NCBI GenBank assembly: GCA_022451965.1 | Contig: JAKUNJ010000007.1 | Location: 84,914 to 127,975, forward strand | Length of the DNA: 43,062 nt | Reading direction: 5' to 3' | DNA from: Dehalococcoidia bacterium | GTDB lineage: Bacteria > Chloroflexota > Dehalococcoidia > Lucifugimonadales > Lucifugimonadaceae | Translations under genes and position numbers: made by a program | The notes under the pieces: generated by a model | Database searches by the model: none | Seen by the model: the letters and a program-made list of their open reading frames with translations, nothing else | What the model was told of the DNA's origin: nothing | Shown: positions 25,774 through 31,284 of the stretch, piece by piece | How positions within the stretch are numbered: the first letter of the stretch is position 1 | Layout: every line of letters begins with the position of its first letter

Positions 25774-26016
25774 ATGGATATATATGTTGGTAATTTACCT
25801 TGGAGCATAGATGACGAAGGATTAAAAAATCTATTCTCTGAACATGGTGACGTAATAAGTGCAAAAGTTATTACAGACAGAGATACAAACCGATCTAAGG
25901 GTTTTGGTTTTGTTGAAATGGATGATGACTCAGCTGAAAGTGCTATAAGTTCTCTAGACGGATCAGAAGTAGAGGGAAGAGCAATAAAGGTAAATAAATC
26001 TAAGGGTAAGAAATAA
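25774..26016 (+). CDS. RRM-type RNA-binding protein (first of two)
   Basis: This 80-residue protein is a single RNA recognition motif with a basic tail. RNP2 is IYVGNL (3-8) and RNP1 is SKGFGFVEM (about 42-50), and both carry the aromatic residues that stack on RNA bases. The tail ends KVNKSKGKK. Such small bacterial and cyanobacterial RRM proteins act as RNA chaperones, often in cold response. Shine-Dalgarno AAGGAT precedes the ATG. A close paralogue is at 31042 on the other strand; the two share most of the core sequence. Confidence 0.92.
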
Positions 26017-27497: not shown

Positions 27498-28964
27498 ATG
27501 GAAGTTACGTTTATATATCCTAATCAATTATTTGATAGTAATCCTGCTTTATCTAGGAATAGAAAAAATTACATAATCAGACATCCGAATTTTTTTTCAA
27601 AAGAAAATGATTATAAATTACATAAGCAAAAACTGCTTCTACATTTTTTGAGTACAGAAGATTATGCAAAAAAGCTTATTGATTTAGGTTATGAATGTGA
27701 AATAGTAGAACACAATGAGTATGATAATTTTGTAAATAGAATTTTGATTTCAGATGTCACTAGAATTCACTTATGCGTCCTTAATGATCACTCTTTAGAA
27801 AAATCTTTAATGGACAAATTTTCCCTCAAAGCCTCTATAATTTTTGTAGATTCTCCTTACTTTTTAGAATCACAGAAAGAAACATTAGAATATTTTAATG
27901 ATAGAAAAAAATTTCAATTATCTCATTATTACAAAAAACTTCGAATCAAGCATAATATTCTTATTCAAGAAGATAATAGACCCAAAGGAGGTAAGTGGAG
28001 TTATGATGTTGAAAATAGGAAAAGACTACCTAAGGGAAGTGTTATCCCAGAGAATATTAGACTAACTTATAATGAAAAATTATTAGATAAGTATAAAGCA
28101 AAAATCATTTCAGAATTCCCTAATAATCCAGGTTCATTGGAAAATTTTAATTATCCAATAAATACTTCTCAAGCACTTGAAGTTTTTTCGAATTTTCTCA
28201 TTGAAAAGTTTAGAAGATTTGGTGACTATCAAGATGCAATTTTGGATGAAGAAACTTTTCTATTTCATAGTATAATTTCACCATCAATGAATATCGGTCT
28301 ATTGACCCCAAGAGAAGTCATTAATACTACGTTGTCTTTTTCAAAAGATAATTATATAGGCTTAAATTCATTAGAAGGTTTTATAAGGCAAATTCTAGGT
28401 TGGAGAGAATACATTAGAGGAATTTATTTATCTAATGGTAAATTTCAGAAAAGTTCAAACTATTTTGAAATTTCAAATGACTTACCTCAATCTTTTTATT
28501 CAAGGATATCTCTAGCTCCAGTAGATAATTCAATTAAAAAAGCTAACAGTTATGCTTACTTACATCATATTGAAAGGTTAATGATAATTGGAAATATAAT
28601 GCTACTTCTCGAAATAGATCCTGTAAAAGTTAATAGATGGTTTATGGAATTATTCATTGATTCATATGAGTGGGTAATGGTGCCAAACGTATTTGGTATG
28701 AGTCAGTTCTCTGATGGAGGCTTAATGGCTTCAAAACCCTACATAAGTTCTAGTAATTATATTCTCAGAATGAGTAATCATACAAAAGGGGAATGGTCTG
28801 TAATTTGGGATTCTTTGTATTGGCAATTTATTTCTAATCATAAAGAAAAATTAGTCACTAACCCTAGAATGAGCTTAATGGTAAATATTTTTGACAAAAA
28901 AACTAACAAAGCAAAAAAAGATATTAAATCTATATCTGAAAATTTCAAAGAGTATATCTTTTAG
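27498..28964 (+). CDS. Photolyase/cryptochrome-related protein (PhrB/CryB family) without Fe-S cysteines
   Basis: At 488 residues it matches the iron-sulfur bacterial cryptochrome / (6-4) photolyase group (DPRP family). An N-terminal Rossmann-like part binds the antenna. KGGKWSYDVENRKRLPKG (163-180) and the FAD-binding C-terminal half follow, with GWREYIRGIY, YLHHIERLM (His356-His357, the pair used in (6-4) repair) and FSDGGLMASKPY. The family's four cluster cysteines are absent. The first aligns with Pro341, and the CxxC...C segment before LYW is replaced by a short NHTKGEWSVIWDS stretch. The only two cysteines (67, 93) are N-terminal. Function could be DNA repair or light sensing. Confidence 0.85.
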   Translation: MEVTFIYPNQLFDSNPALSRNRKNYIIRHPNFFSKENDYKLHKQKLLLHFLSTEDYAKKLIDLGYECEIVEHNEYDNFVNRILISDVTRIHLCVLNDHSLEKSLMDKFSLKASIIFVDSPYFLESQKETLEYFNDRKKFQLSHYYKKLRIKHNILIQEDNRPKGGKWSYDVENRKRLPKGSVIPENIRLTYNEKLLDKYKAKIISEFPNNPGSLENFNYPINTSQALEVFSNFLIEKFRRFGDYQDAILDEETFLFHSIISPSMNIGLLTPREVINTTLSFSKDNYIGLNSLEGFIRQILGWREYIRGIYLSNGKFQKSSNYFEISNDLPQSFYSRISLAPVDNSIKKANSYAYLHHIERLMIIGNIMLLLEIDPVKVNRWFMELFIDSYEWVMVPNVFGMSQFSDGGLMASKPYISSSNYILRMSNHTKGEWSVIWDSLYWQFISNHKEKLVTNPRMSLMVNIFDKKTNKAKKDIKSISENFKEYIF

Positions 28965-31041: not shown

Positions 31042-31284
31042 TTATTGCTTACCTCTAGATTGATTAACTTTCAATGGCCTTCCATCCATCTCATACCCCT
31101 CTAGAGCGTCTATTGCTTTTTGTGCTGATTCATCGTCCATTTCTACAAACCCAAAACCTTTTGACCTATTAGTGTCTTTGTATTTTATTACAGTGGCACT
31201 TTCTACATCCCCATATTGTGAAAACAATTCTTTTAATTCGTCGTCATCAACCTTCCAAGGGATATTACCAACATAAATATCCAA
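31042..31284 (-). CDS. RRM-type RNA-binding protein (second of two)
   Basis: This 80-residue single RRM has RNP2 IYVGNI (3-8) and RNP1 SKGFGFVEM (42-50), with a short basic tail. It is the same length as the paralogue at 25774 and shares [15 protein letters not shown]. The start is TTG (complement of 31282-31284) with AAGGAT at a spacing of 6 bases; no in-frame ATG occurs before RNP2. It is probably an RNA chaperone. Gene order on this strand is RRM, the 145-residue protein, the 50-residue protein and the orphan permease. Confidence 0.9.
   Translation of the reverse strand: MDIYVGNIPWKVDDDELKELFSQYGDVESATVIKYKDTNRSKGFGFVEMDDESAQKAIDALEGYEMDGRPLKVNQSRGKQ

Follow-up and report, generated by a model that had tools for sequence, protein, structure and literature searches.

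The gene at positions 27498-28964 of the window (the whole 43,062-nucleotide stretch of SAR202 DNA analysed here) belongs to a large and previously described branch of prokaryotic (6-4) photolyases that carries no iron-sulphur cluster; it is an ordinary member, found here in an understudied host, and we predict, with a probability of about 0.8, that its product is a working light-driven (6-4) photolyase of this branch (subgroup M). The first-pass annotation of this DNA had recognised a protein of the PhrB/CryB family that has none of the four cluster cysteines, and had explained it by loss of the cluster, perhaps in adaptation to iron-poor surface water; the observation is confirmed here and most of the interpretation is replaced.

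A PhrB-type protein without cluster ligands

The open reading frame encodes 488 amino acids from an ATG start, with no internal stop. Residues 5-219 match the Pfam family PF04244 (DPRP; E 8e-39), and its nearest solved relatives in a sequence comparison, each with E < 1e-70, are prokaryotic (6-4) photolyases from Caulobacter, Synechococcus elongatus, Rhodobacter (CryB) and Agrobacterium (PhrB). An AF2 model built from 34 sequences (the window protein and fetched loci) reached a mean pLDDT of 91.8 and a pTM of 0.92. Using VIA-align, its top matches were CryB 3zxs (Z 49.0, rmsd 2.0, 480 residues aligned) and PhrB 4dja (Z 48.7); all ten listed PDB entries of the PhrB/CryB group scored Z 43-49, class II photolyases came next at Z 29, and the Foldseek ranking agrees. 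The protein has both the DPRP N-terminal domain and the full-length PhrB-type fold, and its membership of the PhrB/CryB family without the four cluster cysteines, as first annotated, is borne out by PF04244, alignment and fold match. Its features are as follows (all on the forward strand; counts refer to homologues with none, "Cys-less", or all four of the cluster cysteines):

27498..28964, forward: cluster-free prokaryotic (6-4) photolyase, 488 aa, predicted from ORF, PF04244, alignment, tree and structure match
27510..28154, forward: N-terminal DPRP (PF04244) domain, antenna side, residues 5-219, containing both cysteines
27519..27644, forward: altered antenna pocket, residues 8-49, with Arg28 (mostly Glu elsewhere) and two residues that hardly vary among Cys-less proteins, Pro8 and His49
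28005..28007, forward: Asp170, equivalent to PhrB Asp179, invariant (91/91 Cys-less, 39/39 four-Cys)
28233..28235, forward: Asp246, equivalent to PhrB Asp254, invariant (91/91 Cys-less, 39/39 four-Cys); with Asp170 it forms what we take to be the Mg2+-site pair of PhrB (Asp179/Asp254)
28518..28526, forward: Pro341-Val342-Asp343, with Pro in place of PhrB Cys350 (Pro 90/91 and Asp 91/91 in Cys-less proteins; Cys 39/39 in four-Cys proteins)
28563..28568, forward: His356-His357 pair with the catalytic His (PhrB His366), from alignment and PhrB mutagenesis (PMC4619345)
28677..28679, forward: Met394 near FAD N5 (PhrB Glu403), Met in 91/91 of the Cys-less clade
28740..28760, forward: Tyr415 to Tyr421, equivalent to PhrB Tyr424 (lesion binding) and Tyr430, invariant
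28776..28817, forward: shortened loop, residues 427-440, the region of PhrB Cys438/441/454, with clade-specific Trp433, Trp437 and Asp438 (alignment; model pLDDT 93-97)

The only cysteines in the protein are Cys67 and Cys93, both within the N-terminal domain. In the alignment with PhrB (4DJA), the columns of Cys350, Cys438, Cys441 and Cys454 correspond to Pro341, Thr429, a gap and Val435, about 10 residues of the CxxC loop are missing, and His356-His357 fall on PhrB His365-His366; every one of these details that the first-pass annotation had given and that we checked, from the two cysteines to the His-His pair, agrees with the ORF and the PhrB alignment. The protein thus lacks the four conserved cysteines binding [4Fe-4S] by which an FeS-BCP is recognised. 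The loop, for which a structural model had been proposed, is confidently predicted, with block means of pLDDT 93-97 for residues 421-440; the preceding residues 401-420 are modelled less well, at 63-75.

Beside the first cluster position, the Gly and Thr of a near-invariant turn (residues 335-337; 28500-28508) are missing, in frame, in the window protein alone. The photolyase region is flanked by genes for two very similar 80-aa RRM-like RNA-binding proteins on opposite strands (25774-26016 and 31042-31284).

The cluster-free clade and its SAR202 members

The absence of the cysteines, first taken as a peculiarity of one protein, characterises an entire published subgroup: among 110 prokaryotic (6-4) photolyases in seven subgroups, all have the four cysteines but the 20 members of subgroup M, PromaPL among them, and the name "FeS-BCP" is best reserved, according to the same authors, for the cluster-bearing subtype (PMC9178010). 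Picocyanobacterial Phr2 is likewise without cluster cysteines (PMC9426592).

As the first-pass annotation had proposed, we compared members with and without the cysteines by alignment and tree. The alignment of 131 homologues takes in SAR202 and other Chloroflexota, 80 loci of the genome collection, plasmid sequences, two contigs of IMG/VR and three PDB chains; all four cluster cysteines are present in 39 and none in 92, and zero proteins carry one, two or three. The four-Cys rows make up one side of a single branch in a 130-row tree (SH-aLRT 100), and the same branch appears in a 55-row tree built without the trait columns (100/100) and in 200/200 bootstrap trees examined. Depending on the root of the tree, the split may reflect loss of the cluster across the clade or its ancestral absence.

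The SAR202 proteins form one clade, with Fidelibacterota (L015) and an uncultured bacterium (L014) as nearest outsiders, nested among Bacteroidota, Planctomycetota, Verrucomicrobiota, Ignavibacteriota and others. PF04244 was found in 30 of 301 Chloroflexota genomes, the only Cys-less ones being SAR202 G000 (the window genome; 1.25 Mb, 97.8% complete) and G013. The protein of the closest relative with a name, SAR202 cluster bacterium OSU_BB06 (Chloroflexota; L013), is 69% identical to that of the window; homologues from four further genomes of the genus (48-70% identity) and from three genomes of another genus in the same family (52-54%) all lack the cluster cysteines and the loop. The concern that close relatives might have all four cysteines and this copy be a decayed allele is answered by these sequences, and a pseudogene or decay reading is ruled out by the intact ORF together with dN/dS of about 0.1 among relatives: 0.098 for L002 against L013 (dS 0.39), the closest informative pair, and 0.17 for L005 against L006 (dS 0.14), these being values from pairs of relatives, with pairs that include the window gene near saturation. 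Only in one genus member (G003) does the copy, L009, look broken, by a frameshift or by stop codons; it lies on a 5.9-kb MAG contig, where assembly error and decay are indistinguishable.

Recent loss of the cluster within SAR202, by decay or by adaptation to iron-poor water, is very improbable. A small-genome marine host would suit it, as would the four-Cys protein (L010) present in one genome of the same family (G019), but L010 is only about 30% identical to the window protein, and constraining it to group with the SAR202 proteins costs 147 log-likelihood units and is rejected (p-AU 5.7e-12). Moreover, purifying selection acts on the gene, and the SAR202 proteins lie within a multi-phylum Cys-less clade, apart from the four-Cys proteins of their own phylum. 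At the present sampling, tree and AU test reject a recent loss, and with it the idea that the cluster disappeared in the host's own line; since the SAR202 proteins are nested in the Cys-less clade and the grouping with L010 is rejected, the gene was, as far as sequences tell, already cluster-free on entering SAR202, which most likely obtained it ready-made by horizontal transfer from another marine bacterial lineage. Nor did iron-poor surface water hold up as the cause. Species from soil, the rhizosphere, fresh water and living hosts belong to the clade (among its named hosts are Chitinophaga rhizophila, Dyadobacter sediminis, Chryseobacterium, Epilithonimonas hominis, Hymenobacter frigidus and Fodinibius salsisoli), so scarce seawater iron cannot be the general cause, and G000 itself retains two SUF-core proteins of Fe-S assembly. 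PromaPL of Prochlorococcus marinus was reported by Ma et al. 2019, and an origin through iron limitation in the ocean is said to have been proposed for it in print.

Searches with the window photolyase gave no match among annotated phages and two in IMG/VR. One is a 6-kb contig (L093:504-5718) with a T4-type gp32, a helicase loader, a Cys-less photolyase and then a methionine sulfoxide reductase gene; this phage-borne photolyase lies deep within the Cys-less clade in the larger tree. The other, an 83-kb contig (L094:49-7373), carries the C-terminal part of a CPD-type photolyase and a Cys-less PhrB-type photolyase, and resembles a large eukaryotic DNA virus (DHFR-thymidylate synthase fusion, NUDIX), an assignment read from gene content.

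Conserved residues, proposed function and alternatives

PhrB residues His366, Tyr424, Tyr430, Asp179 and Asp254 are kept in 91/91 distinct Cys-less rows, the catalytic His and the lesion tyrosines being His357, Tyr415 and Tyr421 in the window protein; in PhrB, mutants of His366 and Tyr424 lost repair (PMC4619345). Ten columns sharply separate the Cys-less from the four-Cys proteins (91 against 39 rows). Six lie at or near the old cluster loop, namely Pro341 (90/91), Asp343 (91/91), Trp433 (91/91), Trp437 (90/91), Asp438 (89/91) and Ser419, and the others are Pro8, Phe33 and His49 in the antenna domain and Met383; none of the 39 four-Cys proteins has Trp at 433 or 437. Our literature search, which did not reach the main PromaPL report, found no description of the Pro/Asp/Trp433/Trp437/Asp438 signature. 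Mutants of the cluster cysteines of PhrB were insoluble or not expressed (PMC4619345), and the Cys-less clade must therefore stabilise this region in another way. Trp433 and Trp437 probably form a packed aromatic plug that replaces the metal at the old cluster site.

We propose that blue light would excite the reduced FAD, either directly or by way of an antenna, and that an electron would then move from the FAD to a (6-4) photoproduct bound by Tyr415, Tyr421 and both aspartates, His357 serving as proton donor. Where PhrB needs its [4Fe-4S] site for folding, a short loop with two invariant Trp, together with Pro341, Asp343 and Asp438, would probably pack the same region free of metal. Several features count against a working (6-4) photolyase: the missing Gly and Thr of the 335-337 turn, Arg28, Thr53 and the broken electron chain. 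The chain seen in subgroups A, B and G is interrupted here, Tyr334 and Phe382 standing in place of PhrB Trp342 and Tyr391. Of the pocket for DMRL or 8-HDF (PhrB Leu8, Gly9, Asp10, Glu33, Lys47, Met55) only Lys45 is kept, the changed residues being Tyr7, Pro8, Asn9, Arg28 and Thr53. DMRL synthase was not found in G000 (97.8% complete). As 7 of 8 genus mates possess the gene, an assembly gap is the probable reason, and a suspected riboflavin auxotrophy of G000 was dropped on that ground. CofH was not found in G000 either.

A switch of the cluster-free forms from (6-4) to CPD repair, guessed in 2022 for picocyanobacterial Phr2 from its missing cysteines (PMC9426592), seems improbable to us. That argument stands on the missing cluster alone, while all 91 distinct Cys-less rows retain the (6-4)-type catalytic His and the two lesion tyrosines, and PromaPL has been described as a cluster-free (6-4) photolyase. 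G000 moreover already has a CPD-type photolyase: a 473-aa protein encoded about 39 kb upstream on the same contig, closest to the Agrobacterium class III CPD photolyase 4u63. Four genus members, G000 included, carry a CPD-type photolyase alongside an intact gene of the PhrB type; as this is Agrobacterium's pair, the analogy would favour (6-4) repair for the window protein. Slightly less probable again is a light sensor (cryptochrome), after the regulatory role reported for R. sphaeroides CryB (gene regulation by CryB is cited in PMC9178010). CryB is the best structural match, but at Z 49.0 against 48.7 it ties with PhrB; the window protein retains all repair residues, and it has no C-terminal extension and no regulator adjacent to its gene. 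The first-pass annotation had left a choice between a kept function and a change to light sensing: with the repair residues invariant in sequence, the former probably stands, and nothing favours the latter.

Supply of the cysteines by a partner protein, also raised at first, is extremely improbable. The sole small Cys-rich candidate found is DUF2256 (PF10013; about 45 aa with four Cys). Its gene neighbours those of many such photolyases, but it adjoins four-Cys enzymes as well, it is absent from G000, and the cluster loop itself is deleted in the window protein; as a Cys donor it is ruled out by its company with both enzyme types and its absence from G000. DUF2256 adjoins photolyase genes of both types at 37 loci (including L132:1462-1611 and L064:3867-3995), and it occurs in 27 of 301 Chloroflexota genomes, often unlinked, 25 of these 27 being among the 30 DPRP-positive ones (hypergeometric P ~2e-29, relatedness ignored). 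It may be a dedicated partner of PhrB-type photolyases; our literature search found no paper naming DUF2256 together with a photolyase.

Relation to known photolyases and significance

The predicted cluster-free (6-4) photolyase of the window resembles PromaPL and subgroup M in its PhrB-type architecture, the absence of all four cluster cysteines, a Trp/Tyr electron chain that is not intact and a Met near FAD N5, as in the majority of proteins outside subgroups A, B and G (PMC9178010). It falls with the Cys-less members and shows the subgroup M pattern of Tyr334, Phe382 and Met394, a likeness to PromaPL by description and not by sequence, as PromaPL and other published subgroup M reference sequences are absent from our trees; it differs in its host, a SAR202 Chloroflexota. 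With the FeS-BCP PhrB (4DJA) and CryB (3ZXS) it shares 31% identity, the full-length fold (Z 49), the catalytic His, the lesion tyrosines and the aspartates, whereas these have the [4Fe-4S] ligands and a loop 10 residues longer, and PhrB has Trp342/Tyr391 and Glu403 where the window protein has Tyr334/Phe382 and Met394. The Cys-less photolyases of Bacteroidota, Planctomycetota, Verrucomicrobiota and Fidelibacterota are 38-49% identical to it and share the Pro/Asp/Trp/Asp signature and the loop deletion. The window protein deviates even from this clade in its antenna pocket, with Arg28 and Thr53 where most keep Glu28 and Met53, and many of the clade's genes adjoin DUF2256, which G000 lacks.

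The role of the cluster in PhrB-type photolyases was still called unknown in 2025 (PMC12082625). With a large natural clade whose members fold cluster-free and carry a clean replacement signature, the cluster's purpose becomes testable by swapping the two types of site; the significance comes from this clade-wide signature and not from the SAR202 gene itself, which is one ordinary member. It is unlikely that the Trp433/Trp437 pair takes over an electron-transfer or lesion-sensing role of the PhrB [4Fe-4S] cluster, but if it did, one enzyme family would have solved the same task in two ways, with a metal and with protein alone.
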